Assembly: GCA_028554795.2 (NCBI GenBank) | Contig: CM068841.1 | Span: 26,717,308 to 26,781,307 of the forward strand | Source: Sinohyriopsis cumingii | Lineage: Eukaryota; Mollusca; Bivalvia; Unionida; Unionidae | Direction of reading: 5' to 3' | DNA length: 64,000 nucleotides | In this document: piece after piece, positions 4,363-55,455 of the stretch | Position numbering within the stretch: the first letter of the stretch is position 1 | Layout: every line of letters starts with the position of its first letter | Program-made: the position numbers and the translations under genes | Notes under the pieces: generated by a model | Told to the model about the DNA's origin: nothing | What the model saw: the letters and a program-made list of their open reading frames with translations, nothing else | Databases searched by the model: none

Positions 4363-7300
4363 TTGAAACGATCGCATCATTTCGTGGAGAAAGGAGAAGA
4401 AAGTAAGAAGCAGAAACGTGATTTATCTCCTCGCACAGTAGCTGAAGTCTTGGCTCAGATGCATGCCAGCGACTTTGAAGATGACATGAGTGAGCCCGAA
4501 TCTAGGCCCAGAGAGTCTACACCCAACCAAAGTCCACCAGTATCACCCGAAAATTTCTACCGCATTCGAGAGACTGAAAAGCGGTCATCTAGAAAATTTA
4601 GAACTACGGCCTACACATACGCGGTGAAGTTTGAAGGCGTACGTCTGGAGAATGAAGATTTCATCACCGATGTATGGGATTCTTTGTTAACCACACTGAA
4701 ACGGCAATGTGAAGCCAAAGAAGACGATCGCGTGAGGCTTTAAATTCATCACAACAGTTTGAAGTCCCCTTTTCGGATCGAGTTTAGCAGCCCGGCAGAA
4801 CTGACACCTTCCAAAGTCAACGACAAGTTTCACATCGCTGACGGAAATTCGACACTCTTCATGACCCACGTGTCTCTTCCCCAAGGGACAGGACATAAAA
4901 AGGTGTTATTGGTAGACGATCTTCTCAGCACCAAAAAGAGTCTCGTCCAAAATTAACAACCCTATAGACAATATGTGTTTAGCCTGTCCCATCGTGGTGG
5001 GGCGAAACATATGCTGACAAGAACGACATGGCAGAACTCAAAAGAGCCTGGAAAACTATACAACAATCGTACTGAGTCAAACAACGAAGTGAAGCAGAAC
5101 ACCTGTTACAGCAAAGCGAGGCTATCCAAAGACACTCCCTGTGGCATTCCTGACATGCAAACATTTCAAGACGTCTTGGCTCTACGCTACACCTTGAAAG
5201 TGCACCCTCAAGAAGTGTGCAGACCTCTGTTGTTTCGAGGCAAATATTTCAAAGACGGAGAATACATTCACGTCTATCATCACGATGGACATTTCGATGC
5301 CATTACCAGTATCGCCTCATTCCTGGGATAAAGTTATTACTGTGAGAAATGTGACCATGGCTATAACAATCAAGAGCAATAAAAACATTGTGGATCGAAA
5401 TGTGAGGAATGTTTTCCCTCTCAACTCTGTCTGGCCCAGCTTGTCAGCTCACTTTTGTCAGCCCTGTCTGTTACCAACAACATTTAAATACGCGTGGGTC
5501 TCAGAAGAATAATGTTTGTCAGTTGCTGTGATTGTGCCCTACTTGTGAACAAGGCATATGTGGCAACAGTGCCAAGGCACACGCATGTTCAGGAAAGAAA
5601 CGATGTCACATTCGTCGCCAAATCATAGACTTAAAACACGAATGCCATATTCAGACATACCATTCCGAACATCAAGAGGGAGGCGATAACCAGAAGAAAG
5701 GCAATTTAATCTTTATCGAATTTGAATGCATGCAAGAGAGCGGTATTTACATTCCTAATTTATGTGTGGCTCATCGAGCGTGCGAGAAGTGCATCCAAGA
5801 GCGTATCTTTAGTCACTGCCCTCACTGCAGCAAGATTCCTGGTGAACGTGAAAAAATCTTGCGGAGACCTAACACGCTAGCCGATTTGGCCCATTGGATA
5901 TTAAACCCAATCTACGAGACTTGGAGCCAAGAGGACATCGTACGTTACGGAGACTCCCATTGCCATGCTGCGCTGATGGCTCACAATTTCTTGGGATACG
6001 ATGAACAGTTTCTTCTCATATACTATACGGAACAAAGTACCAAACGTCCTAAAGTGACTTTGAACGGAGCCAAAATCATTTCCATGCAAGTTGGACAAGT
6101 GAAGTTTAAAGATTATATGAGTTACTTGGCTATACCTTTGATCCAAATACCTAAAACGTTTGGAATGACGGAAATGACCAAGGGTTATTTCCGCACTTTT
6201 TCAATAGCGAGGCCAATCAACACGCCGTTCTACTCCATTTGCCTGAGGCTCACTACTGCGACCCCGACAACATGCACACCGAACAACGAGAAGCTTTCTA
6301 CGCTTGGTACCACACTCGCGCTTCGGACCCCTTCGACTTTCAGGAAGAACTGGTAAAATATTTTCGTTCCGAAGTGGACATTTTACGGCGTTGCTGTGGA
6401 AAATTTCGAAAATTGTTAATGGAACACGGAGGGATCGATCCTCTGAAAGACGCTTGCACCATTGTCAAAGCCTGTTCCTTAGTATACCGCCAACGATTCA
6501 TGCCCGAAAACACACTGGTTGTCATCAGCCCTCAAACAAACAACATTTTCAAACGTCGATACTCGGTCAAAGCCCTACGCTGGCTACATTACTTGTGCGA
6601 CAAAGAAGACAAATTGATTCAACATGCCCGAAACGGAGGAGGCAAAAAGACCATCGGACAATATTCGTTGGATGCCTGAAACTTAGAAAACCCTCAGATC
6701 GTGTACGAGTTTAACGGATGCTTGTTCACAGATGTCCCCTAAGCTACCCTCAATGTGACACTAAAAATCATTTTTTACAACGTACCTTGGAGGACTTGTA
6801 TGAGGATACTTGTCAGCGACGCTTGAAGTTAGAACAGCAATAATAGTGGTGGAAATGTGGGAACACGAGTACGATCACCGTTTGAAAACTGATCCCGAGT
6901 TTAAACGTATCGTAGAAAGTTACAAGCTGGTGGACCCTCTGAGCGCACGAGATAGTTTGTAAGGTGTACGGACGAATGCCACCTGTTTGCTGTACCAAGC
7001 CGACGAGGGGAAAGGAGAAGAAACCAAATACTTGGACGTGTGTTCCCTGTATCCTTAAGTGTGCAAATATTGTCACTTTCCTGCAGGGCACCCACAATTG
7101 CTGACGGAACACATCGACCTGAAAAACATTCGACAGTGCGAAGGATTGATCAAGTACATAGTCTTGTATCCCACGGACTTGTACCATTCCGTTTTACCTC
7201 ACCATTGCCAGGGAAAACTGATGTTTCTCTTGTGCCGTATTTGTGTCAAAACGTGCAACCAAGACCGACCTTGTCAGTACACCCATGAAGAACGCGCCTT

Positions 7301-8373
7301 GACGGTAACGTGGGTCAGCGTGGAATTGTGTGAAGTCCTGGACTCGGGATACCAACTGTTAGAAGTGTACGAAATTTACAACTTTCCCAAGGCAGAAAAT
7401 ACCACAAGGGCGACGAGACTCAGAAAGGCATTTTCGCAGACTACCTGGATGCCTTTTTGAAACTGAAACAAGAATCTAGCGCTTATTCTTCCTAGTGCCA
7501 CACTCCCGAAGACCAAAATAAATTCAAAGAGAAATACTGGGAGCAGGAAGGTATCACTTTAGACCACGTGGAGAAAAACGAAGGAAGCCGATGGTTTGCC
7601 AAAGTGATGTTGAATTGCTCGTGGGGCAAAATGGCACAACGACCGTGTTTCCCCAAGACGGAGTATTTGACAGAACCTTCTCGCTACTTCCAGATGATTC
7701 ATGACAAAACCAAATACATGGAACACGTAAACTTCCTTCGTGAGGACTTGATATTAGTCAATTACGAAGAAGAATTGGACATTGTAGAAGCCGACGAATT
7801 TGGAAATGTCATCATTGCGGCTTATGTGACAGCCCATGCTCTCTTAAAATTGTGCTAATTTTATGAGCTGTTAGGAGATCGCGTCCTGTACTTTGACACG
7901 GACAGTTGCGTCTACATATATCGCCTGGGTCGCTGTTACTCAAAACTGAAGGGGACCATTTAGGAGTCTGGATGGACGAGCACGCCGACGACAAGATTGT
8001 AAGTTTTGCTAGTGGTGGTCCTAAACATTACGGCTACGAATATCGAAACCCTCAAGGAGAAGAGCACACCAAGTGTAAGGTGAAAAGATTGACTCCCAAT
8101 TATCACACCAGTCGAGTGGTGAAAAACTTTTGCGTACTGAAAGAAGCCTTGCAGTCTGGACAGGATGACAACTTTAAAGTGACCACCTACGAACCGCACA
8201 ATATTGTACGTTTACCTACACACCAAATCGTCAGTCGACATCTGGGAAAAGTGTGTCAAATCGTGTACCAGAAGCGATTGTTGCTTCCCAACCACTTCGC
8301 TTTACCGTACGGACACGCCAATATTGGTCAGCATATAAAGGGGAAATCGTCCAAGACCGATACTTCATTGTAA
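4363..8373 (+). pseudogene. Protein-primed DNA polymerase B (Polinton/adintovirus type), broken copy 1
   Basis: This would have replicated the element from terminal-protein-bound ends. Readable in order: an N-terminal region matching copy 2 (4363-5330); a Cys/His-rich segment with CEKC (about 5340-5640); Exo I as FIEFECMQ (about 5710, canonical Asp changed to Glu); Exo II AHNFLGYDEQF (about 5972); Exo III KYFRSEVDIL (about 6355, again Asp to Glu); Pol A LDVCSLYP (about 7033), followed by TAA at 7056-7058; Pol B KVMLNCSWGKM (7601); Pol C YFDTDSCVYI (7888); and a thumb region with SGGPKHYGYEY (about 8010). The Asn-x-x-Trp-Gly form of Pol B is typical of Polinton-type enzymes. The gene is shattered by stops (4741, 4954, 5329 and more) and frame changes across all three frames. 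The expected start codon is TTG at 4363, where copy 2 has ATG. The family assignment is secure; activity is excluded. Confidence 0.9.
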
Positions 8374-8424
8374 CTACCAACGTCAATCGAGAAAGATGAA
8401 TACTTTTAAATAGACATCATTCAA

Positions 8425-8745
8425 GTTCGGTGGTTCTCAAGTGGAGTGCGATGATGTGCTTTGCGATGAGATCGATGCCGTACGCTGTGACCGCAGCAAT
8501 TCAGTACGACATCATGGGAATTCCGTTATATCTACGACCATACCTACCATGGAAAGTGATGATGTGCGTGTCAAACCTGGTGGATGCAAAAGCGGTGACA
8601 CTCGTTACAGAACATCTTATCACTTTACTGGTTTTCATTGTCAATGTCATCCTCCACGTAAAACCATGCAGCTACTACCCTACGGATGTCATCCATCCCT
8701 GAGTAAACTCCTGCAAATTTCACCTTACCCTCATCGAAATTAGTG
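8425..8745 (+). other. Cys/His-rich ORF of unknown function
   Basis: An open frame just downstream of the polymerase, rich in Cys and His (for example ECDDVLCDEIDAVRCD and FHCQCHPP), lies on the coding strand of the element. The Cys pairs could form a zinc-binding domain, but no family is recognised. It might be the N-terminal part of the gene that continues from about 8713, interrupted by a frameshift, or chance sequence. In element 2 the corresponding place is taken by a BIR gene, and the Cys spacing here does not fit a BIR. Confidence 0.3.
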
Positions 8746-9382
8746 TGAAAGACGAATATTTGTGCGTTTGCCTGAATACAGATTTTTTGAAAGTCGATTC
8801 TAAACCTTCCAAGGCAAAGATAAGGATTGGTTTGTTGTGACTCATTCTTTTTACTACAAGGTAGACTTACTGCAACGAATTTCATAGGAAGAATTAAAGG
8901 ATTATCAAAATGGTTTGCACAATGTGAACTCTGTTCATGAGGAAATGTTTGAACGGAGTGTGATGAGCAAGTTAGTGACTAAACGATTTACATTTGCCAC
9001 TGGAGTACGATCATCTCCGTACAGAAAGTACACTTATTGCCTCCGACAAAAAGAGGTTTCAAAACTGGCTACCGTGCGACAGCCTTTATCAGAATTGATA
9101 CAACAAATTCCGTGGAAGGAAATCAATGAGAGTATTCAGACGGTGGAGGATTACCAACACTTATTACGTGAACCGTGTCCCATGAATTGGGGGTGGGGAT
9201 GTGTGGCGTGTGTCTTAGTGACTTCCTTTCTGGGATTTCGTTTACCAACCGATTCCTTGTGGACTCCTTACGAACAGTACATACAAATACATTATGGTGG
9301 CTTCTTTAAATGTGCACGAAACACTTATTCTTTTCAAAGCTTTACGATTCCATATCGATACATCTCAGTCTCTACTACATGA
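8713..9382 (+). pseudogene. Unrecognised element gene downstream of PolB
   Basis: A coding-like stretch split by at least one frame change near 8815 and a TAG at about 8885. The longest uninterrupted part (8886-9382) reads about 165 residues. It includes a conserved-looking PCPMNWGWGCVACVLVTSF segment (about 9175-9231), a Gly/Trp/Cys-rich patch followed by a hydrophobic run, and then a Tyr-rich tail. Ordinary codon choice and the element context argue that it was once a protein. I do not recognise the family. A Cys-protease-like or structural protein is conceivable, but no His/Asp partner residues can be assigned. It has no counterpart in element 2. Confidence 0.4.
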
Positions 9383-10633: not shown

Positions 10634-11066
10634 TTGGAAGTTGACATACCTTCGATTCGAAACCTACCACGAAAGAGAAAGTTTACAAGAAAACAAAAGA
10701 CAGTTGATGTCATCAAGAGTGCTGCAGACAGTACTGTGCCATTAGAACACGCACGTACTGCAGAAAACCACGCTACTCGACTACGATGTCTCATTATCTC
10801 ACTTTTACTTTGTCGTTGATCACTGGGATCATAGAAGAGCTCTTCAGAAAGGAAATCTAAAAGAAGAAAGAAGAATGGACGGAGAAGTAGAGACTTCAGA
10901 AGCAAAGAGATCAGAGAACACCAGCAACAGCAGTAGCAGGAACCAGACAGAGGATTTGTCGACTCCAGTGTAGACACAAAAGAGTTCAACTTCCCTTTCC
11001 GACGAAACAGACCCTGTCCTGTGGGGAAAGCCTGCCGCCAGACGGGGACGCAATCATAGACGATAA
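10634..11066 (+). pseudogene. Basic, Ser/Arg-rich protein gene with histone-type 3' end
   Basis: Reading starts in one frame (10634-10819) with a nuclear-localisation-like PRKRKFTRKQK. It switches frame near 10750 and continues as a Ser/Asn/Glu-rich middle part to a very basic C terminus (KPAARRGRNHRR), stopping with TAA at 11064-11066. An internal TAG lies near 10970. The stop lies 31 nt before a 16-nt histone-type hairpin, which is why I trust this C terminus. A small basic protein with such a tail could be a DNA-packaging (core-like) protein; that is inference. No family is recognised. Confidence 0.4.
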
Positions 11067-11097
11067 AAGATTGCAGTAACTCCCCGTCCACAAAAAT

Positions 11098-11150
11098 AGC
11101 CCTTTTCAGGGCTACCCCAATACTCTAGAAAAGAGATACTAGTTCAATTG
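11098..11150 (+). terminator. Histone-type 3' processing hairpin and downstream box
   Basis: AGCCCTTTTCAGGGCT at 11098-11113 forms a 6-bp stem with a TTTC loop. It is preceded by CACAAAAAT and followed by ACCCCA, as in replication-dependent histone mRNAs. Thirteen nt further on comes AGAAAAGAGA, matching the purine-rich histone downstream element that pairs with U7 snRNA, and then TTCAATTGCC. It lies 31 nt after the stop of the preceding broken gene. The same layout recurs at 12530, 49110 (minus) and 50191. Confidence 0.75.
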
Positions 11151-11814: not shown

Positions 11815-12090
11815 CTCTTGCAAACTAATTGAATTACAACTGATTGAATTATAAAACGCACTTAATAATTGGCGGACTAAATTGATGTTTGGACTTGTTT
11901 ACTTTTCCTTGATACCTTTCCTGTTTTACCAACTCCAGAAATGTAAAGGGAAGCGCTTGTCAGTCTGGCTACCCATCGTTGATTCATCAACTTGAAAAAT
12001 AAGTAGAATTGCAAAACTCATGGAACTTCAGTTCGCCTGGAGTATGCCAGGCGCATACTAAATGAACTGGCTATGGATTCCATAGCATAA
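11815..12090. other. Non-coding spacer of element 1
   Basis: The stretch between the 117-bp repeats and the next coding-like frame shows no ORF. It contains a self-complementary GTATGCCAGGCGCATAC around 12044-12060, which could fold, and is otherwise unremarkable. The start codon or first part of the downstream gene may have been lost here. Confidence 0.4.
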
Positions 12091-12489
12091 ACTGCTAGGA
12101 TAGAGGAGAAGGAAGAAGAGAGAAAGAAACAAGGAAAGAAAAAAACGATCCTGCCTCACCTCATACTGATACCACTGTGTGAGGTCAGGCCTGAGCTGAG
12201 GACGCTTCCACCACTAGAACGAGCACGACAACTAGCACGACAACCAGCACCACAACCACAACGACGCCAGCTACAGCCACCAATACCAGTGCCAGAGATA
12301 AGGAGACCTCATTATCCACGACTACAAAATAGAAGACAGAGGGAAGTCTTCATTATCCCACAAAGTGAAGACTGAGATGATGAGGCCACTGAACCCGCCT
12401 TTGCGCTCCCAAGAACAGATGTAAATTGGGAGCAGGACTGGAGTAGATGTTGCGTGTGTGGGGCCAGGCCTGGGAGATGTCAGTATTAA
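12091..12489 (+). pseudogene. Basic Pro/Gln/Arg-rich protein gene with histone-type 3' end
   Basis: One frame reads 132 codons with a single internal TGA at 12373-12375 and ends in TAA at 12487-12489. The product is Lys/Glu-rich at its start, Pro/Arg/Gln-rich in the middle (for example PAPQPQRRQLQPPIPVPE) and ends with a Cys cluster, CCVCGARPGRCQY. No upstream ATG remains after the TAA at 12088, so the 5' end is damaged. The stop is 41 nt before a histone-type hairpin. The family is not recognised; the basic proline-rich composition suggests nucleic-acid binding (inference). Confidence 0.45.
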
Positions 12490-12529
12490 GCAGGTGTATC
12501 TGAAGCTAAAAAAAAACAAAAAAAAAACA

Positions 12530-12580
12530 AGCCCTTCTCAGGGCTAACCAAATCTCTTGAAAAGAGACTATTGCCAATTG
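12530..12580 (+). terminator. Histone-type 3' processing hairpin, second copy in element 1
   Basis: AGCCCTTCTCAGGGCT at 12530-12545 forms the same 6-bp stem with loop TCTC and the flanking sequence AACCA. It is followed by TCTCTTGAAAAGAGA (12553-12567), a purine box within a short hairpin, and then by TTGCCAATTGGC. The upstream flank is A-rich. It sits 41 nt downstream of the TAA of the basic Pro-rich gene. Confidence 0.75.
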
Positions 12581-40764: not shown

Positions 40765-43700
40765 TTAGATTTGTCCCCTTTTGCCTATTTTGTTAATGAA
40801 TGTCATGATGTTATTATAGGTCATTCCTATGTTATTGTTTTTTGCCACAAGTAACTCCGGGTATGTCCACCGTTCTCCTATTTGTTCCTGTTGAGATTTT
40901 AGTTCGGCCCTTTCCTGGTTGTATTTGGGGCATATATTTATTAAGTGTGCAATTGTTTCTGGAGTTGGGCAGTAGGGGCAGTTTTCGGTTGGTCCCCTTT
41001 TTATGTGTTTCCCTGCGCATCCTGCCAATAGTGTTTTACCTGTTCTTATTCTATTTATTATTGTTATATCGTATGGATTTTTGAAGGTCGGACTTTCGAC
41101 TTTTCTACTTACTTTTTTCATCATCGTGTGTATTAGACTGTTTGCATCCGATTTTTCCCATAGCTCTTGCCACATGTCATTGATCTTGTCCCATGTTATT
41201 GATTTCAGTGACGCTGTATGCTATATTTTGGGCTTTTGGTTCGTTTGTGGCGTTTTTTGCTTCTGCATCTGCTTTGTCATTGCCTGGGATTATGGATGTG
41301 AGAGGGTATCCATACGAATTCAACGTGTTTGTTGTTTTTTTCAATCTCTTTAAGTAGCGATCTTGCATGATTAATCATATTAGGTCTGCTCTTGGATTGG
41401 TCCGTTGCTAACGATTGTAGTACACTGTAAGAGTCGCTTAGAATGACTGCCTTAGTTGTGGGGTATGTTTTGACGTATGTTAATGCCATTAGTATTGCCA
41501 TGAATTCTACCGTGTATATAGCGCATTGGTCTGGGAGTCTTTTTCCAACGGTGACATCTAATTTTGGGATCACTATCCCTGCTGCAGTTTTATTTGGATT
41601 TTTGGTTTTTGATCCATCTGCGAAGATTTGCGTGTATGTCTCGTATTTGTTGTCAATGTACGTTAGTATTGATGCTCTTAGTCCTATCGGGTCATTTTGT
41701 TTTTGTCCTAGTTTACGTAAGCTAAGATCTATTTGTGGTGTGGGACAGGTCCACGGGGGGTCTGGGTAGTACCTTATTTTTTCTGGGTTGATATTTGCGA
41801 TTTGAAATTTCCTTTTTAATTCTATAATTATTTTCCCACTAGGTATTTTTTTATTTTTTCCTTTTGTATCGAATGGTTTGTCGCATGCTAAGAGGGCTTG
41901 TAGCGTGAGGTGGTTGGGTTGGTGTATTGATATTCGAGTCGAGTATCGCAGCATCAATTCCTTCCGCCTTAGGTCTAGCGGGGGTTCTCCTACTATTATT
42001 AAGATATCTTGTGTGGGGGTACCATTTAGGACGCCGGTGCATACCCTTAGCGCTTTTGATTGGACTGTGTCTAGTTTCTTTAGTAACGTGGCGTTTGCCG
42101 CTCCATATACCTGGCAACCGTAGTCCAATTTTGCTCTTATAAGTGCTCTATATAGGGTAACGAGTGTTTTTTGATCAACCCCCCAATTCACCCCTCTGAG
42201 GTTTCTGTGGAGGTTGATGTCTCGTTTGCACTTCGTTACGAGTTCTTGGATATGAGCTGCCCACGTGGTCGAATACCATACCTAGGAGTGTCGCTTGTTT
42301 TTCGAATTTGATGGGTACCCCCTTTAGGGTTAAGTTTGGAGTGGGTGGGGGGTGGCCACCTCCCGGATTGGAAACTATGCCTACTGTTTTTAGAGGTGAC
42401 AATTTAAATCCCCATTTATCTGTCCAATTTCCTATATCGTTTAGTCCTTTTTGTAAGTGCTTGGTCGTTTCTCTGCTGGCCGGGTTGCCAGTTTTCCATA
42501 CGGCGCTGTCATCGGCGAATTGGGATAAGTCAAGGTGGTTGGGTTTTACCGCTGTTTCCAGGTCGTTTATCATTATATTAAATAAAGTTGGGCTGATTAC
42601 GCTTCATTGTGGTGTGCCATTTTCCAGTTTGTATCGTTCGGAGTAGTCTTGTCCTAGTCTGACTTGTATCTTTCTATCGGTTAGGAAGTTAGCAATAAAT
42701 TTGTATATATTGCCAGTTATTCCGTATGGTTTAAGTTTACTTATCAGTCCCTTAGTCCACATTAGATCATATGCTTTTTCCATGTCTAAGAAGATGGCTG
42801 TAACATATCTGGATTTTTAAAATTTTTCTCTAGATGCTAATTTGACAGCGGTTTCTAGTCTCATGAGTTGGTCTATTGTGCTTCGGTAGTTGCGAAACCC
42901 GCTCTGTGTATTAGCTAGTAGTCCTTTGCTTTCTAAATGGTATTTCAGCCTGTTGTTTACCATAATTTCCATTATTTTACATATATTGTCTGTTAGTGAT
43001 ATGGGCCTGTATGATTTTATATCACTTGAGGGTTTTCCAGGCTTAAGAATCGGGACCACTACTGCCTTTTTCCATCTTATAGGTATGGTACCGGTTTCCC
43101 ATATTTTATTAATGAGGTTAAGTGCAATTGTGACAAGTTTTTTGGGTAGGTTCTTGTACATTTCATACCCCAAAGTGTCCTCCCCGGGGGATGTGGTCTT
43201 TTTGCCGGCGAGGGCCTTTCTCCATTCGGCTTCTGTAAACGGAAGGTTTAGTGGGCCGTCATTATTTCCTGCTTCCTTTATGTTGTCAGAGTTGCTTTCC
43301 TCAAATTGCCTTTTATGATTTTTAAACTTATCCTCTAAGTTGGTATTGCTACACATGTTGGCGAAATAGTTTGCGAATAATTCTGCCTTATGTTTGTTGT
43401 TTTGTCCAGGTATGTTGGGGGTTATTGATTTAGTTTTGCCTCTCATTTTTTTAATTCTTTGCCACACCTCCTTCGATTTTGTGTTAATATCTAGTTTTGA
43501 GCAGAATTCTCTCCATGAGTTTTGTTTAGCTATCATAATAGTTTGTTTGGCAGTTTTTTCCTTTTCCTTGTAGTAGTTAAAGTCCCTATTATTTTTAGTT
43601 CTTTTGAATTTGTTTAGAGCTCTTTTTTTCTCTTTAATTGCTATTTTACATTCATTATTCCACCAGGGCACCGTGGGTTTGGGTGCTACTCCTTTAGTTT

Positions 43701-44580
43701 TAGGAATTGTTTCTTGGGCCATTGTGTTAATGGTTTCTATTAATTTGTCATTAAAGGTGTCAATGTCCCGGTGATATATGGTTTCTGGGTCGATTGAGTC
43801 ACCTATCTGTTTGAACCTAATCCAGTTGGCCTGTTCGTATTTCCATCTTGGTGTGAAGGACGCTTTATTTTGAGGTATTCTAATTTGTATTTCTATATTT
43901 ATAAGGTAATGGTCACTTCCCATAGGGTCGCTTTCATCAACTTGCCAATCAGAAATGCCTGCTAATCTTGGTGTGCATAGAGATAGGTCTATTGCTGATG
44001 TGTGACCTGTTCTGTCATCTATCCGGGTGTGCATTCCGTTGTTTAGAAAAACTAAGTTGCATTTTTGTGCCCATTTTTCTACAATTTTTCCTTTAATGTC
44101 CGTCTTTTGACTCCCCCATAGTTCATTGTGCGCATTGAAGTCCCCGCATATTACCACCCATTCTCCACAGTCTTTAATCATTTTGATTGTTTCGTCTGCA
44201 CTTAAATTGCGCTGCTCATTTGTTTCATAGAGGTTAACGATTAGTACCTGCTTAGTTTGAGCGGTTATTTTGACTATCTGTATTTCGAAGTCATTGGGCG
44301 GTCTACTATCTGTTAATTTATGCATTTCTGATGTAATTCCATCTCTAACAAAGGTTGCTAACCCCCCTCCTCTTGCTGTGGGGGATCGATGCTTTAGGTA
44401 TTTGGTGTTGTAGCCTATGATGTTTGGGATACGTGAGGTATCATTTAGGTGGGTGTCCTGTATGCATATAACATCTGGTTTTCTTTCCTGTTCAAGTATT
44501 TTGTTATTTAGTTGGTCAGCGTGGGCCCTAAGGCCGCGTGCATTCCATTGCCATATTTTGATTTCTGCTCTGGAATCCAT
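40765..44580 (-). pseudogene. LINE ORF2: endonuclease, reverse transcriptase, RNase H
   Basis: Starts at ATG 44580 and stays open for 587 codons. AP endonuclease motifs are WNARGL, IQDTHL, RGGGLATFV, CGDFNAHN, SAIDLSL and SDHYLI. The RT has SPGEDTLGYEMYKNLP, VVVPILKPGK and SYRPISLT. A TAA at 42817 interrupts it, after which the same frame continues with FLDMEKAYD, TPQ-stop-SVISPTLF (TGA where Gly is expected) and the active-site FADD. A 1-nt loss near 42265 precedes the next part (41277-42191), which holds the RNase H (FADGS, VEFMAILMAL, LSDSYSVL). Further frame changes near 41280 and 41180 lead to a C-terminal Cys motif, CPYCPTPETIAHLINIC, and the stop at 40765. Two stops and about three frameshifts in all. 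Confidence 0.88.
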
Positions 44581-44667
44581 CTCTAGTGCAAAAAGTCTTA
44601 ATAGTTTGTTTAATTTACTGTTGTTTTCATTTTATGCGTGTTTCCTACCAGTGAGGGTGCTACCTAT

Positions 44668-46018
44668 TTATTTTGTTTTTGGTATCCTAATTTTTGTTTT
44701 GGCCTGCTTATAGTTTACCCCATGGGAGATCATATATTCGACTATTAGGGCTTCTCTAAGAGCCCTGGGGCATTCTGCGTGGTTTGGTTTGTGGTTACCA
44801 CTACAGTTAGCGCAGTGCTGATTGCTGGCGCTACATGTTTTCCGGTCTGGGTGGTGAAGACCACATTGATTGCACCGGAATAGGTTTCCGCAACTCTTAG
44901 AGTAATGCCCCCAATTTTTGCAGTTGCCACAGAACCGTGGTTTGTTTTTGAAAGCAAAAATTTTTTTAGCCTCGAGTTTTTCGGCTATTTTGATAGTTTC
45001 TGGGGTGGCGCCCTTAAAAAAGAGTACCACTGCAGTGCTATCCTTTCCCCTTCTTGTTTTTAGGCGGATTGCTTTCTCTACTTCCTGTCCTTTACTCCTT
45101 ATGTAGTCTACTATTTCATTGGTTTTATTTTGAGTTGATACGTATATGACTCCTTTGTTGTGTGTTTTTGGGGGGTTTGGGTCTATGTGTTGTTTTGTTC
45201 TGTTGTGTCTAGTGACCTGAACATTTATTTGGCCTATTCTTTCAATTTCCATATATTTGGCAATCTGTTGTTCAGTGGTGCATTTGATTATCAGCAAGTC
45301 GTCTCTAGTGCTTTTAAGCGTGAATTCTCCTTGGTGATGTTTGTTCAATTGCCATGCTATGGTTTTAAAGGCTAACTTCGTTATTTTGGAATTTACTCCC
45401 TTGACGAAGAGAGTCAGTTCAGCGGGGTGTTTCTTGTTTTGGATATTTTGCAGACTGGTCTTTTTTCCCCTGGTGTTTGTCTCTTTAGCTGACTTTGTTT
45501 CGTTGTCCATAACCGGCTTGCTGGGTCTTGTATTGACAGTTAGTGTGTTCCTTATTCTTTCTAACTGGTATTTGGGATTTGGTTTTCCTATTATTCTTAC
45601 CTTTTGTTGAGTCGTGTGTGACTGCTTTATTTGTGGTAGGGTGAGGGCGTTCTGTTTCATCTAGTAGGTTCTCAGTTTGAGTCCCCTGGCTGCTAGTGTT
45701 TTTAACCAGCGTGGTCTGGGTTGTTTTTGTGCTTGTTGAGTATTGTTCCTCAGTTTGGGTACTCATGTCGGATGTAGTTTTGCGGTTACTCGGTAGATTG
45801 TCCACATTCTCGTTTACGCTTGGTGACAGGTAGAGTCTACTCATCGAGTCAGTTGGGGTCGAGTTGAAAATTGGCGTTAAGAACTGTATCTGTCGTTTTT
45901 CTCTTAGGGGGGATGAGACTGCTTCGGAGTAAGTTTGCCCTAGTTTATCTGCCTTTAGGTTGACCAGGCAGCTGAGATAACTATTTGATGATGTGACATT
46001 AATTTTGTTGTTATCCAT
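44668..46018 (-). pseudogene. LINE ORF1 (gag-like RNA-binding protein), one frameshift
   Basis: The ATG at 46016-46018 opens a frame (to 45485) rich in Ser/Thr/Gln. The gag continues in another frame from about 45660 to the stop at 44668, so a single frameshift lies near 45600-45660. The C-terminal third has three zinc-knuckle-like motifs: CGNCKNWGHYSKSC, CNQCGLHHPDRKTC and CANCSGNHKPNHAEC. It would coat the element RNA. ORF2 starts 88 nt downstream. Joined length is about 440 residues, in the usual range for I/Jockey ORF1. Confidence 0.8.
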
Positions 46019-46039
46019 CTTGAGTTTCTTTATTTGATG

Positions 46040-47715
46040 TAAGGTATATATGACGGGATATTTCTTTATCTGTCTTAACTATACTTTATTCTACTTAGTA
46101 CTATGAAAAAGCAACAGCTGTAAGGGGATATGCAAATAGCTTTTATTCTGATTTGTGTAATTAATTATTATATTACTATTATCCAATTTAAACTTATTGA
46201 AAATTATTTTCTAGCCAAATGGTCAAAGTAAAAGGTTTTACTTACCCCGATCCAATTTTCTTTTTAAGATCTTTAGAGTTTTTAAATACAGCCTTCTAAT
46301 TATACAAGTTTCATTACATTGGTCAATAATTAGTCACATGTGATGACACTTGTAACTAATCAAACCACAGCAACTGAGAGCAGACTAAGCACTGATATTT
46401 ATATGGTACAGTGGCAATATACAGTCTGTCTGCTGCAACACATGAAACAAACTGGACAAATCTGAAAGCCTTGAATTTGACTTTATTTATCTGTATGGTA
46501 GAACAGAACCTGAGTTGAAAAGCTTTTAAAGAAAGACCTTGATATCAAACCTAATAATAACTGCAGGAGTTATATTATGGATAATTAACCATTCTCTCAG
46601 TTTCAAACTGGGCAATCCATCCCATGGGGTTCTAAATGTAAACCAAGTGTAACTGATATCCTAATGAACTGTAAAGACCATAGCAGCACAACAGCAGGGG
46701 ACCAGGTATGTCCAGATCCAGAAATCACAGACCAGTTTCAAACTGATGATGAACCACATAAAAATTACACATCTGCTAGAACTTATGTTATGAAGATAAC
46801 TTAAATTGCATTATTATTAATCCTCCTCCTCACATTCATCATAATTGAGATGCATCATATATGTTTTATTGTAAAATAGTTTATGCAACATAATTCAGTG
46901 AAGACCTTTGCTGCCAATTTACCAGTGAACCATTTGTTTCAATGAACATATTTTATGTTGTAACAAGGAGCATCATTTAAACATTATGATACACTTATCA
47001 TACCTGTATATGAAATCTTAATACTAACACTTATACTTGCAATACTACTACTAATAAAAACACCTGCATTGATAATTTGATTATGTTCAATTGGACTTGT
47101 ATCTAAATGATCACCAGCTGTATGAAAAGACATATTTTAATATATAGATATTGGATGGAATACTAGTTACCACAATTGAATAGTCATATGATAAATGATA
47201 TATTATTTTAAACAATTTATATTTGCAGTGAAACATACTTTTACATTATTTTCACTTAAATTTCATTTATAGAGCAGTATACTCTGCATTCATTAAATTA
47301 CTGAAATGGTTATAATACAACAACAAATACTGCAACTTCCAGAATCACAAAAATCAAAAGATATAAACAAAAACTTCCCTACATGTATCAACAGTTGTCA
47401 CTTAATAGACAGAACTCTGAAGATTTAGAATAGGATGTTAACAAATTAGGTATTCAAGTTAAAAAGAAAAAAATACCAAGTAAGCTTACTACCAAAAAAT
47501 CAAACAATAACAGTGAATTTTAGTACATTCCCAGGAAACAGAATATATGATTTTTCTTAACTTGATCTGATACATCTTAAATCTATAGAAAATGATTCAT
47601 ATCGTATGACTAAAATATTATGTAAACAAAAATTCCATCACTTTTTTCAGATGCAACATGCATACCCCAACCCATCCTTCTTGATCATAAAGTATACCAG
47701 CATTCCACTATAAGA
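46040..47715. other. Gene-free AT-rich stretch
   Basis: No ORF of note, no repeat with a definable unit. The beginning may include the 5' untranslated region of the I-type LINE. Confidence 0.5.
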
Positions 47716-49076: not shown

Positions 49077-49125
49077 TTGAAAGTCAAGATCTTTTCGAGA
49101 GATAGGAATGGCCCTGAAAAGGGCC
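49077..49125 (-). terminator. Histone-type 3' processing hairpin (minus strand)
   Basis: On the minus strand, GGCCCTTTTCAGGGCC (49125-49110) starts 12 nt after the stop of the minus-strand ORF and has the flanks CCAAA before and ATTCC after. It is followed by TCTCTCGAAAAGATC and then TTTCAATTGCC. The core sequence is identical to the hairpin at 50191 and fits the histone mRNA consensus (6-bp stem, TTTC loop). Confidence 0.8.
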
Positions 49126-49424: not shown

Positions 49425-49603
49425 TACTTATTTATAGGGGGAGGAAGGATTGAAACGGATTGAGTTTGTTGACCAATCCAAACACGCGTTACAAAATTCA
49501 GTCAGCCCACGTCCAATCCGAAGAGAGCAGTCTGTGACGTCACATAGTCTATATAGATTCGCTAGCGCCTGTGCGTAGTCAATCTAAGCGACAGTTTTTC
49601 AAC
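49425..49603. promoter_or_regulatory. Divergent promoter with CCAAT, CRE and two TATA boxes
   Basis: Minus side: TATAAATA at about 49430-49436, upstream of ATG 49383. Plus side: TCTATATAGA (49548-49557), about 50 nt upstream of ATG 49604. In between lie a palindromic CRE (TGACGTCA, 49535-49542), two CCAAT boxes (49473 and 49513) and ACGGATTGA (49455-49463), the motif repeated in the 117-bp array of element 1. CCAAT and TATA in a divergent arrangement with histone-type 3' ends recall histone gene pairs; regulation in S phase is an inference. Confidence 0.65.
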
Positions 49604-50168
49604 ATGACGGAAACTCAGAAAACGATCAGTTTGGGTGCACTGATGGTGGAGACTACCCAAGGGAACCCAGACTTACTTTCAGAAGAGGTGAATTGGGATT
49701 TTGTGGATTTTTTTACCTTGCAAGAATTTGTTCCTGAACCTTCGTCACCTTCTCCTTCATTACCGCACATGGAAAATTTTAGACAGAGACAGAAAGAAGA
49801 ATTGGAGAAATTTATACAACAGCAAAAGGAAGCGGAACAAGCTTTTCTCCTACAGCAACAGCAGCAAGAAGAAGAGGTAAGAAAAAAACAACAAGAAGAA
49901 GACGCAGCAGCAAAGAAACAAGGGTGTCAAAATCAAACGGTCACGGTACTGTTAGACATTTTAGTTAAGAAGTCTGAAACAGATGTATCAGACTTCTTTA
50001 TTACGGCCGAAGAGAATACGACCTTCCCAAGCTAAACACTCCAACCCTGTGACTACGCCTACTGCACCATCCTTAGTGATTTCAACGAAATCATCATCAA
50101 CAGTACGCAGTCCAGAAGTAGGCCTTGGCCATGGCAAAGGCTTAAGACAGTTAAAGTTGATTGTTTAA
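49604..50168 (+). pseudogene. Gln/Glu-rich coiled-coil protein gene with histone-type 3' end
   Basis: The ATG at 49604 (consistent with the TATA box at 49548) opens 143 codons: an acidic N-terminal half with Pro/Ser (about residues 45-55), then a long Gln/Glu/Lys stretch (RQRQKEELEKFIQQQKEAEQ and after) predicted to be a coiled coil, ending at TAA 50035. In another frame the sequence stays open from 49983 to TAA 50166-50168 with RPKRIRPSQ and a Ser/Thr/Pro-rich basic tail. That second stop lies 22 nt before the histone-type hairpin, so I infer a frameshift near 50000 and this longer C terminus as original. No family is recognised. Counterparts with basic tails in element 1 end the same way. 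Confidence 0.55.
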
Positions 50169-50190
50169 ACTCACCCCTTACACCAAAAAA

Positions 50191-50245
50191 GGCCCTTTTC
50201 AGGGCCATCCACGTCTCTCGAAAAGAGATATGCTTTCAATTGCCA
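50191..50245 (+). terminator. Histone-type 3' processing hairpin
   Basis: GGCCCTTTTCAGGGCC at 50191-50206 is preceded by ACACCAAAAAA and followed by ATCCACG. TCTCTCGAAAAGAGA (50214-50228) follows 7 nt later, and then TTTCAATTGCC (50234-50244). The core matches the replication-dependent histone consensus, and the purine box is where U7 snRNA would pair. This is the best-preserved of the four copies. Confidence 0.85.
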
Positions 50246-50422: not shown

Positions 50423-50879
50423 TTATTCTGTCTCATTGTTCACTCTCTGTTTTTTTAATTTCTTCACCGTCATAGTCTTTTCCTCCTCTTCCTCTTCACT
50501 TTCTTCCCTTCTTTTCTTCTCCTGTTTCTTTTTCTTCACCTGTCTGTTTTCTTCCTCTTCTTCTTCCTCTTCCTCTGAAGAATCCCTCTCTTCTTCTGAC
50601 TCCTCTTGTTTCTTTTTTGGGCAGTCTGGTGACCAATGTCCTTTTTCTTGACAATAATAACAGGTATCTTGACTTTTGTCTCTTCTAACCCCTTTTTTTT
50701 CTTTTTTGACGGTCTGGACACTCTGAAGACCAATGCCCTTTCTTCTGACAGATATAGCAAGTATCTTGACTTTTATCTTGAAAGGAAGGAGAGTAGTCCC
50801 TCGGCTGGTCTGAAGAGAATTTTCTAATGACCCCTCGCAAAGCTCTGATGAAACGTTCGATCTTGGTAGTCTCTTCCAT
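50423..50879 (-). pseudogene. Two-zinc-knuckle (CCHC) protein gene, one frameshift
   Basis: Start chosen at ATG 50879 (MEETTK), about 55 nt below a minus-strand TATA box. The upstream in-frame ATG at 50927 lies too close to the TATA box. After about 45 residues comes CYICQKKGHWSSEC (C-x2-C-x4-H-x4-C). In the frame reached by removing one A of an A8 tract (50686-50693) a second knuckle, CYYCQEKGHWSPDC, follows, then a long Glu/Ser/Lys-rich acidic-basic tail to TAA 50423. In the present frame the protein stops after KRKKRG. CCHC knuckles bind single-stranded nucleic acid; the role in the element is unknown (packaging or replication are possible). It diverges from the polymerase gene. Confidence 0.7.
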
Positions 50880-51012: not shown

Positions 51013-54000
51013 ATGAAATGATCCAATTCATTTGAGAAGAAAGAAGAAGAAAGTAAGAGGCAGAAACGTGATCTATCGCCTCGTACTAGGGCTGAAGTCT
51101 TGGCACAAATTCATGCCAGTGATTTTGAAGAGGACATGAGTGAACCAGAATCCAAACCCTCTAAACAAAGTTTACCACCCTTAGTCAACCCTGAAAAGTA
51201 CTATGACATTCGAGAGACGGAAAAGCGTCCCTCTAGAAAATTTAGAACTACGGCTTACAAATACACAGTGAAGTTTAAAGATTTCAAGTCTGAAGTACTG
51301 TTAGAGAAAGCAAAAGGGTTCATCACCGACATGTGGGATTCTTTGCTCACCACACTCAAGCGACAATGTCAACCCAAAGAAGATGATCGCTTGAGACTTT
51401 CCATACAACATGATGGCTTGAAATCCCCTGTTTGGATCGAGTTTAGCAGCCCTGCAGAATTGACCACTTCCAAAGTCATGGACAAGATTCAACACGTGCA
51501 ACAATCTAATGACCAGTTTGACATCACCGATGGAAAAGCCACACTGGACATGACCCACGTCTCTCCTCCTCAAGGGACCGGGCAATGCAGAAAGACCTTA
51601 TTGGTCAACAACCTTCGCATTACCAAAACAAGTCTTGTCCAAATTAACAATTTTCAAGACCACATGTGTTTAGCCCGAGCCATCGTGGTGGGATGAACCT
51701 ATGCCGACAAGAACGACACGGTAGAATGGAAAAGAGCCTGGGAGAACATTCGAAAATCGAACCGAGCCAAACAACGAAATGAAGCAGAACTTCTGTTACA
51801 ACAAGCATGCCTGTCCAAAGACACATCCTGTGGCATTCCTGAGATGCAAAAATTGCAAGATGCCCTAGCTCCACGATACACCTTGAAAGTGCACCCTCAA
51901 GAAGTGCGCGGGTCTCTGTTGTTTCGAGGGAAAGACTTTAAGGATGGAAAATACATTCACCTCTATCATCACGATGACCATTTCGATACCATTACCACTA
52001 TCACTGGATTCCTGGGATACAAATATTACTGTGAGAAATGTGACTTATGATGGTTATAATAATCGAGAGCAACACAAACATTGTGGATCGAAATGCTCAG
52101 GATGTTTGGCCTCTCAACCCTGTCTGAGCGAAGGGCAAGAACCAGTGCATTGTCCTGCTTGTCTGCGCACATTTGTCAGCCCTGCCTGTTACCAACAACA
52201 TCTGAAGATGCAAGGTTCACAGAAGAAATGTGCTTGTCAACTCCTGAGATTGTGCCCAATGTGTGGACAAGGTCTATGTATCAACAGTACCAAGGCACAC
52301 GTATGTTCAGGAAAGAAAAAATGTCACATTTGTCACTGCATTGTGGACTTGGAACACCAATGCTACATACAAAAATACCAATCCCAACCAGAGAAAGAGG
52401 ATGGTCACAAGAAGAAGAAAGGCAATTTCATCTTTTTCGATTTCGAATGCATGCAAGAGACCAGTATTCACATTCCTAATTTCTGCGTGGCTCATCGAGC
52501 GTGCGAGAAGTGATTCAAGAACCTATCTTGAGTTATTGCCCTCACTGCAGTAAGATTCCTGGAGGGCGTGAAAAAATCTTTCAAGGACTGAACACACTAG
52601 CCGATTTCACACAATGGGTCTTAGACCCCATCGACAAGACGTGGAGCCAAGAGGACATCGAACATTATTATGGAGATTGTCATCACCATGCCACGGTGAT
52701 GGCTCACAATTTCTCCGGATACGATGGACAGTTTCTTTTGAGATGTTATACGGAACGTGGCATCGAGCGTCCTAAAATCACTTTGAACGGAGCCAAAATC
52801 ATTTTCATGCAAGTGGGACAAGTGCAGTTTAAAGATTCGATGAGCTACTTAGCCATGCCTTTGAGTCGAATGCCTAAAATGTTTGGAATGACAGAAATGG
52901 CTAAAGGGTACTTTCCACACTTTTTCAATACAGAAGCCAATCAACACGCCGTTCTACCCCATTTGCCTCAGGCTCACTATTACGACCCTGACAACATGCG
53001 TACTGAACGAGAAACTTTCTACGCTTGGTACCAGGCTCACGCCTCCGACCCTTTCGACTTTCAGGAAGAAATGCTAAAGTATCGTCGTTCCGACATGGAC
53101 ATTTTACGGCGATGCTGTGGAAAATTTCGAGAACTGTTCATGGAACACGGAGGGGTTGATCATTTAAAAGAGGCTTGCACCATTGCCAAAGCGTGTTCCT
53201 TAGTCTACCGACAATGATTCATGCTTGAAAACACTGTGGCTGTCATCAGTCCTCAAACGACCAACTATGTCAAACGTCAATACTCGGTCAAAGCCCCATG
53301 CTGGTTGCATTACTTGTGCGACAAGGAAGACAAATGGATTCAGCATGCCCGCAACGGACAGGGCGAAAGATCATCGGAATGCATTCGGTCAATGGCTGGG
53401 ACTTAGAAAACCCCAAGATCATGTACGAGTTTAACGGTTGCTTATTTCACGGATGTCCCGTCTGTTACCCTGACCGCGGCACTAAAAATCAGTTCTTACA
53501 ACGAACCATGGAAGACTTGTACCAGGCCATTTGTCAGCCACGCCTAAAGTTAGAACAGGAAGGATCCAAGTGGTGGAAATGTGGGAACACAAATACAATC
53601 ACCGTTTGAACACCGATCCTGAGTTTAAACGCCTCATGGAAAGTTACCAGTTCATGGACCCCCTGAACCCAAGTAATAGTTTGTACGGAGGAAGGACCAA
53701 TGCCACCTGTTTGCTGTACCAAGCTGACGAAGAGAAAGGAGAAGAAATCAAATACTTGGACGTGTGTTCACTGTATCCCTATGTGTGCAAATATTGTTGC
53801 TTTCCTGCAGGGCACCCACAATTGTTCACCGAACACATCGACCTAAAAAACAATCGACAATACGAAGGCTTGATCAAGTGCAAAGTTTTGCCTCCCACGA
53901 ACCTATACCATCCCGTCTTACCTCGCCATTGCCAAGGCAAACTTGTGTTTCCTTTGTGCCGTACTTGTGCTGAAACGTGCAACCAAGATCAACCTTGTCA

Positions 54001-55048
54001 TCACACCCAGGAAGAACGGGCCTTGACGGGGACATGGGTCAGCGTAGAATTGTTCAAAGCTCTGAACATGGGATACCAACTGTTAGAAGTGTACGAAATT
54101 TGCCACTTTCCCAAGACACAATAATTCCACAAGGGTGACCCCACGCAGAAAGGCATTTTCGCAGACTACGTGGATGCCTTTTTGAAACTGAGCAAGAAGC
54201 CAGTGGCTATCTGTCCTGGTGTCACACTCCCGAAGACCAAAAGACATTCAGAGAGAAATTCTGGGCACAAGAAGGCATTACTTTAAATCACATTGAGAAA
54301 AACGAAGGCAGGCGATCGTTTGCCAAAGTGATGTTAAATTGCTTGTGGGGTAAAATGGCACAATGACCGTGTTTACCCAAGACGGAGTATTTGACCGAAC
54401 CTTCCCGCTACTTTCAGATGATTCACGACAAAGCCAAATTCATGAAACACGTGGACGTCGTTCGTGAGGATTTGATCTTGGTGAATTACGAAGAAGATCT
54501 GAACTTTGTAGAAGATGACCCCTTTGGAAATGTCATCATTGCAGCTTACATGACAGCTCATGCTCGCTTAAAATTGTACGAAGCTTTAGAACTGTTAGGG
54601 GAACGTGTCTTGTACTTTGACATGGACAGTTGCATTTATATCGATCACCCGAGTCAACAGCACCCTGACATCGAAGGAGACCGTTTAGGAGCCTGGACAG
54701 ACAAGCACCCCGATGACAAGATTCTAAGTTTCGTTAGTGGTGGTCCCAAAAATTACGGCTACGAATACTGGGACAAACAAGGAGAAGTGCACACGAAGTG
54801 TAAAGTGAAAGGACTTACTCTGAATTATCGTACCAGTCGAGTGGTCAACTTTGGCATATTGAAAGAAGCCTTGCAGTCTAGAGAAAGTGACCACCTATCA
54901 ACCCAACAAGATTGTACGTTTACCCACACACCACATCGTCAGTCGACCCTTGGAAAAAGTCTATCAAATCGTGTAGCAGAAGCGAGTGCGGCTTCCCACC
55001 CACTTTACTTTGCCGTATGGACATGTCGGTATAAAACATTGGTTGTAA
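51013..55048 (+). pseudogene. Protein-primed DNA polymerase B (Polinton/adintovirus type), broken copy 2
   Basis: About 1,345 codons from ATG 51013 to TAA 55046-55048, the better-preserved copy. Order: charged N-terminal region; CLARAIVVG-type segment (51663-51693); Cys-rich zinc region beginning CEKC (52030-52350); Exo I FFDFECMQ (about 52433, canonical DxE); Exo II AHNFSGYDGQF (52703); Exo III KYRRSDMDIL (about 53075); Pol A LDVCSLYPYVCKY (53755); Pol B KVMLNCLWGKM (54325); Pol C YFDMDSCIYI (54612, Met for the usual Thr); thumb SGGPKNYGYEY (about 54738). Stops at 51019, 51694, 53215 and 54364 are all TGA where copy 1 keeps CGA. Frameshifts lie near 52045, 52510, 53370, 53590, 54120-54390 and 54890. 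No function is expected now. Confidence 0.92.
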
Positions 55049-55071: not shown

Positions 55072-55455
55072 ATGACTTCGCCGCAGCAAGAATCGAGTGA
55101 GAAATCCAGTGAGAACTCCAAGTTCAAACCCTACCATTTTCCAGTCTTCTTACCTGACTATTGTGATTGTGCCCGTCGATTGGACACGTTTCAAAAATGG
55201 CCTACGGATAGGGAAGGATTACCTTCTTCGTATGTTTTAGCTAGAACAGGATTTGTCTACTTCGGACCCGAGTCAGGATTGGGATACGAAGTACAGTGTT
55301 TCGCTTGCGGACTGAAGTTACGAATGGATCTATGTATCTACAAAGATTCAGCTATTCTGGAACATACTTGATGGTCTCCGCACTGCCCTTACCTTTCAAT
55401 GGCCTTTCCACCCATTAAACTACGGTACAATTATGACGGTACCTTCCAAAACTAG
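55072..55455 (+). pseudogene. BIR-domain (IAP-type) protein gene
   Basis: The ATG is 23 nt after the polymerase stop. The product has one BIR near its middle: RRLDTFQKWP opening, GFVYFGPESG, then CFACG and EH, and after an in-frame TGA (55369-55371) WSPHCPYL. Zinc ligands in the pattern C-x2-C, His, x6, Cys are all present; the C-to-H spacing of 18 residues is two longer than usual. The TGA sits where many BIRs have Arg, so CGA to TGA decay is likely. The frame continues to TAG 55453. BIR proteins inhibit caspases or act in division; in a virus-like element an anti-apoptotic role is the obvious guess. No RING domain follows. Confidence 0.82.

Follow-up and report, generated by a model that had tools for sequence, protein, structure and literature searches.

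Histone-type 3′ end signals after genes of Polinton-type elements in the bivalve Sinohyriopsis cumingii

Replication-dependent histone mRNAs are described, in passages of PMC7026596, as the only eukaryotic mRNAs known to lack poly(A) tails. In the pathway set out there, SLBP binds the stem-loop, U7 pairs with a downstream element and CPSF73 cuts 4–5 nt past the stem. Histone genes of clams, according to an excerpt of PMC6210712, have stem-loops and purine elements that are partly displaced. We judged histone likeness here against a single histone array unit from this genome and the mouse layout given in part of PMC7026596.

The window that we analysed (the whole stretch of 64,000 nucleotides, positions 26,717,308 to 26,781,307 of contig CM068841.1) contains two decayed Polinton-type elements, which have better-preserved copies elsewhere in the 2.9-Gb genome.

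Stem-loop modules in two decayed elements

The first-pass annotation of this DNA had placed the stem-loops on genes of a virus-like PolB element. The element family is of Polinton type, judging from the sequence matches of its PolB (protein-primed type; PF03175, in two pieces), its rve integrase (PF00665, E = 1e-14, in copy L022) and its A32-like ATPase (above the Pfam cut-off in other copies), and the virus-like label stands. Neither decayed element of the window shows the integrase. Other copies also have a match to an adenain-type protease (Peptidase_C5, below the Pfam cut-off) and capsid-like ORFs, a label given by eye to frames that have no Pfam match. One PolB homologue is named Crassostrea virginica. 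A BIR gene (inhibitor-of-apoptosis type) adjoins PolB in the window (55132–55410 and 8396–8818) and at L021:1518-2219. Between the two Polinton-type elements lies a retrotransposon-like element (40765–46078, minus strand), in which endonuclease and reverse-transcriptase-like ORFs were recognized by eye. The features of the two elements, in window coordinates, are as follows.

Element 1
4363–8325, plus: PolB pieces, broken
8396–8818, plus: BIR gene remnant, N-terminal part
10940–11014, plus: gene E remnant (25 residues, 72% identity)
11098–11113, plus: stem-loop AGCCC...GGGCT after the gene E remnant (Histone3 11093–11138, 27.0 bits)
11128–11137, plus: box GAAAAGAGAT past the gene E stem-loop
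11304–11321, plus: decayed promoter motif of host H4 type upstream of gene F (17/18 bases)
12031–12489, plus: gene F
12530–12545, plus: stem-loop AGCCCTTCTCAGGGCT after gene F (Histone3 12525–12569, 23.4 bits)
12559–12568, plus: box GAAAAGAGAC past the gene F stem-loop

Element 2
49125–49110, minus: stem-loop after gene B (Histone3 49130–49085, 33.5 bits, just below the cut-off)
49089–49096, minus: box GAAAAGAT past the gene B stem-loop
49149–49383, minus: gene B, broken frame
49428–49556, unstranded: divergent promoter region of genes A and B, with TATA-like and CCAAT-type boxes
49428: TATA-like TTATTTATAG, for gene B
49473 and 49513: CCAATC
49535: TGACGTCA
49550: TATATAG, for gene A
49604–50168, plus: gene A, frameshifted near 49966 (74% and 82% identity in two blocks)
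50191–50206, plus: stem-loop GGCCCTTTTCAGGGCC after gene A (Histone3 50186–50231, 37.0 bits)
50220–50229, plus: purine-rich box GAAAAGAGAT, 13 nt past the gene A stem-loop, proposed U7 site
50234–50244, plus: TTTCAATTGCC, kept in most copies, could extend the proposed U7 pairing
50627–50879, minus: zinc-knuckle gene
51013–55045, plus: PolB pieces, broken
55132–55410, plus: BIR gene remnant

Behind gene A the sequence reads as the first-pass annotation had described it: the stem-loop GGCCCTTTTCAGGGCC lies 22 nt past a stop codon (TAA at 50166–50168) and the box follows shortly after, at 50220–50229. The CCAAA-like and ACC-like flanks that it had reported are there, but as AAAAA and ATCCA, weaker than the CCAAA and ACCCA of most copies. 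The same module had been said to occur at 11098, 12530 and, on the minus strand, 49110, always 12–41 nt past a stop. All three are present; the distance holds at three of the four sites, with gaps of 22, 23 and 40 nt, and the stop before 11098 is uncertain because both elements have decayed. A covariance search with the Rfam histone 3′ hairpin model (Histone3), a check that the annotation had proposed, was run over the whole window and matched all four places; only the site at 50191 exceeded the curated cut-off of 34 bits, and the other three fell below it. The six-pair stem and UUUN loop typical of histone ends are thus present at 50191 and at the genome places described below. Common to all four sites is a CAATTG-type stretch about 30 nt past the hairpin, which makes the module longer than first described.

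Four such placements had been called very unlikely by chance, and the counts agree. The hairpin pattern, at up to two mismatches, has three matches in the window (12530 is not included) versus 0.08 expected. A composite pattern of the six-pair hairpin with RAAAAG 12–15 nt on, written after the sites had been seen, matches these four sites and no others in the window, whereas 200 dinucleotide shuffles have 0.02 matches on average and never more than one. On these two comparisons we rejected a chance origin of the module.

Genes that carry the module across the genome

In the genome-wide Histone3 search, 75 of 589,472 first-look candidates were scored, and all of the 75 places listed are over the cut-off. 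We classified 54 of them: the top ten, another 40 and four from the final six. A further place falls in a fetched element copy, L020. All 54 classified places, in loci fetched for a strong Histone3 match, sit with element genes A, B, C or D (tblastn), and H4, H3, H2A and H2B were not among the best five matches of any of these loci. Fifty of the places score 43.0–45.6 bits and four score 34.5–36.1 bits. Nor do the proteins of genes A, B, C, D, E and F contain a histone domain (Pfam). A Histone3 match in an animal genome thus need not mark a histone gene, as all 54 classified places show. By eye, the products of genes C, D, E and F look like small helical charged proteins that may be interrelated (L023:5717-8139, L017:6937-8289).

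The hairpin, at up to two mismatches, follows 23 of 23 A genes, 11 of 11 B genes and 17 of 17 F genes (exactly in 14, 11 and 11), a tally of genes found by protein similarity that were not themselves the reason for fetching their locus, although this tally and the promoter tallies also rest on loci fetched for a strong Histone3 match. Five companion rows for gene C were left out as artefacts: the C query ends in a translated stretch of the module itself. The proposed look at relatives for hairpins past stop codons gave a positive answer among copies within this genome. Spacing is equally regular: in 94 modules collected with the six-pair pattern, RAAAAG lies 13 nt from the stem-loop in 84 and 14 nt in four, with no box found in six, and 40 of the 94 have an open frame of at least 70 codons ending no more than 120 nt upstream, at a gap of 18–29 nt in 34 of the 40.

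Core genes end without the hairpin in 25 of 25 cases (best match with at least five mismatches), a set that includes ends of frame pieces and, like the 55 core-gene starts considered below, comes from few loci and repeated families that are not independent. A[AT]TAAA occurs downstream of several core genes, at +88 and +222 for the protease, +134 and +187 for the zinc-knuckle gene and +203 for the MALNGHEK gene. Gene E, a hairpin gene, also has A[AT]TAAA, at +210, and the frame of gene C runs through the hairpin in one copy; we count both against the explanation favoured below. Because the frame of that copy crosses the hairpin, gene C appears without a hairpin after its end in the core-end comparison.

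Outside this genome, 16 database homologues of gene A were listed and 12 aligned. One of them, P0030, is about 70% identical and reads beyond the usual stop into WPISGPPTSLEKRYYVNCQF, an extension that, on back-translation, looks like a translated module; the remaining aligned homologues carry no information on it. In IMG/VR we found no related loci with PolB pieces and alignments, a capsid-like ORF or two hairpin patterns. Six matches there to one of the hairpin patterns were rejected as relatives, having no Histone3 match; the one whose ORFs we read, L001, looks like phage DNA.

Host histone genes and promoter motifs

Host histone H4 has 114 matches, many of them about 8.3 kb apart on common contigs, as in a tandem array. 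One array unit (L070) contains H4, H2B, H2A, H1 and H3, each of which ends with GGCCCTTTT[C/T/A]AGGGCC (GGTCC...GGACC in H1) and then GAAAAG 13 or 14 nt on; H2A additionally has TCAATTTTGCC downstream. The Histone3 scores of these five genes are 35.0–39.4 bits. In sequence and in spacing, the element module matches the host's own histone signals, as represented by these five genes of one array unit. This identity, the recurrence after the same gene families copy after copy and the absence from core-gene ends support the first-pass reading of the modules as histone-type 3′ signals on element genes.

A host U7 gene was not identified with the Rfam model and two patterns, which we also count against the favoured explanation. 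The Rfam control was likewise without a match, and the empty Rfam search is hence no evidence of absence. The first pattern gave 99 forward and 123 reverse matches, many of them one repeat (49 and 38 in the reversed control), and the second gave nine, as did its reversed control. Five fetched candidates were rejected for lack of resemblance to U7. Many places on C1 to C9 contain the string TCTTTTCCAAATTTGTCT, which is probably part of a repeat.

Upstream of the genes, host and element also have sequence in common, which the first-pass annotation had not noted. The host H2B promoter has a 23-nt motif, GATGTTTTCCATCACGTCCGCGC, that recurs in H1 with one mismatch (L070 positions 750 and 4149 for the H2B/H1 pair) and in H2A reversed, with four; at up to three mismatches, it is absent from 200 shuffles of L070. 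Element DNA has this motif at 49 distinct places in 21 loci (up to four mismatches, eight exact), and 29 of the 49 copies are followed 6 nt later by a TATA-like stretch. There is none in 32 kb of window flanks at up to five mismatches, nor in the window's own two decayed elements at up to four, the latter being a further point against the favoured explanation. Sorted by gene within the fetched loci, the motif lies upstream of C in 8 of 8 cases, D in 11 of 11, F in 10 of 10 and E in one of two; it was not found upstream of A (0/33), B (0/34) or core genes (0/55), or in random 260-mers (0/500). The host H4 motif TTTCTTTTAGGTCCGCGCGTT, at up to four mismatches, precedes 10 of 10 F genes (six exactly) and, with three or four mismatches, 8 of 8 C and 10 of 11 D genes; these counts overlap with those of the 23-nt motif, because GTCCGCGC is common to both.

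Genes A and B are divergent over a common promoter region (L021:7700-8278, gene B on the opposite strand) and in form recall the divergent histone gene pairs of other animals. At least two CCAAT boxes precede gene A in 32 of 33 cases, versus 24 of 500 random stretches. Among the host histone promoters of L070, CCAAT occurs in H3 only.

Alternative readings and known systems

Conservation of the module can be read from 34 gene A copies. On average, pairs of copies differ by 4.3% across the hairpin, 4.6% across the five bases behind it, 4.1% across the box and 3.0% across the TTTCAATTTGCC stretch; the spacer differs by 25.7%, the stretch past the box by 18.9% and the downstream DNA by 16.2%. The 19 bases from stop to hairpin differ by 3.8%, coding positions 1 and 2 by 7.0% and position 3 by 5.5%; the module is therefore conserved about as well as coding DNA, and no better, and the gene A copies show no protein-level constraint now. 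Both this level of conservation and the fact that the window copies are dead count against the favoured explanation. The outermost stem pair of 51 aligned modules is GC in 33, AU in 17 and GU in one, with two-sided change between gene classes; only this change is informative, as stem pairing of 100% results from the construction of the six-pair pattern.

The element could have taken up host histone gene ends passively, the module then spreading by gene duplication with no present role in RNA processing. Neutral-looking copies, in which coding positions 1 and 2 differ no less than position 3 and the hairpin and the stop-to-hairpin stretch are equally low, fit such a history, as would the possible kinship, by eye, of genes C, D, E and F. 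However, at least six gene families carry the module, the divergent A/B pair included, the spacer inside it has diverged far more than the hairpin and box (about 4%), and its stem changes by two-sided substitution. We regard passive capture as unlikely. Considerably more improbable is that abundant element stem-loops and boxes act as decoys that draw SLBP or U7 off host histone mRNAs, with 3′ end formation of the element's own transcripts secondary. The many copies would suit a decoy, with no fewer than 75 Histone3 places above the cut-off, most of them scoring higher than the host histone genes, but the modules are single, sit just past the stops of specific genes and in some cases accompany histone-type promoter motifs, and a decoy needs neither such placement nor such promoters. 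That the hairpin is an ordinary palindrome that serves some other purpose (as a terminator, or in packaging or replication) and resembles histone ends by chance, palindromes being common in mobile DNA, is hardly credible given that its stem, loop, spacing and box are the same as in host histone genes, which strongly disfavours this reading, and that it lies in the sense of its gene, past the stop, and at none of the 25 core-gene ends.

We consider it likely, on the sequence evidence, that some small accessory genes of the element (A to F) are expressed as histone-type cassettes. Each of them ends, usually 18–40 nt past the stop, with the replication-dependent histone 3′ signal of the host: first the stem-loop of SLBP type, next a tail like ACCCA and then, at 13 nt, the purine-rich box to which U7 would pair. 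Upstream, C, D, F and one of the two E genes have motifs identical or nearly identical to those of host histone promoters, and the A/B pair has TATA and CCAAT boxes. SLBP and the U7 snRNP would then cut element transcripts past the stem-loop, and the cassette mRNAs would carry no poly(A) and be most abundant in S phase, a time at which host replication resources could serve the element's polymerase. With core genes ending by polyadenylation, there would be two expression classes. We infer the lack of poly(A), the S-phase timing and the use of SLBP and U7 from established histone biology.

With less confidence, we lean towards a complete mimicry of histone genes: the element, a DNA transposon or virus, would have remodelled some of its transcription on replication-dependent histone genes, with histone subtype promoters on the 5′ side and SLBP/U7 processing on the 3′ side. 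If so, the cassettes would be the first non-histone genes to follow the histone expression pathway from end to end; a set of element genes would be timed to the host S phase, and the element might perhaps be drawn to histone locus bodies. Mobile-element genes with histone-type ends would break the rule that only histone mRNAs lack poly(A), would represent a new kind of link between S phase and the expression of a DNA element and would offer natural test substrates for the specificity of SLBP, U7 and histone promoters.

Three known systems are closest. Metazoan replication-dependent histone genes share with the cassettes the stem-loop sequence, the ACCCA-type tail, the purine box at 13–14 nt, the site near the stop and some promoter motifs, whereas the element genes encode no histones and belong to a mobile element, and their processing is predicted. 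Polintons/Mavericks and adintoviruses share PolB, the rve integrase, the A32-like ATPase, a weak match to an adenain-type protease and, by eye, capsid-like ORFs. Where they differ is in the histone-type signals, as far as the literature covered goes: for Polintons, adintoviruses, transposons and viral genes, the titles and abstract openings of the open-access papers listed mention neither 3′ ends nor promoters of histone type, and term searches within PMC11071296 and PMC12846552 show none. Adomaviruses with their 'Histoid', as described in part of PMC11071296, are likewise a case of an animal DNA virus tied to histone biology; adomaviruses encode a histone-like protein, whereas the element described here resembles histones in its gene signals.
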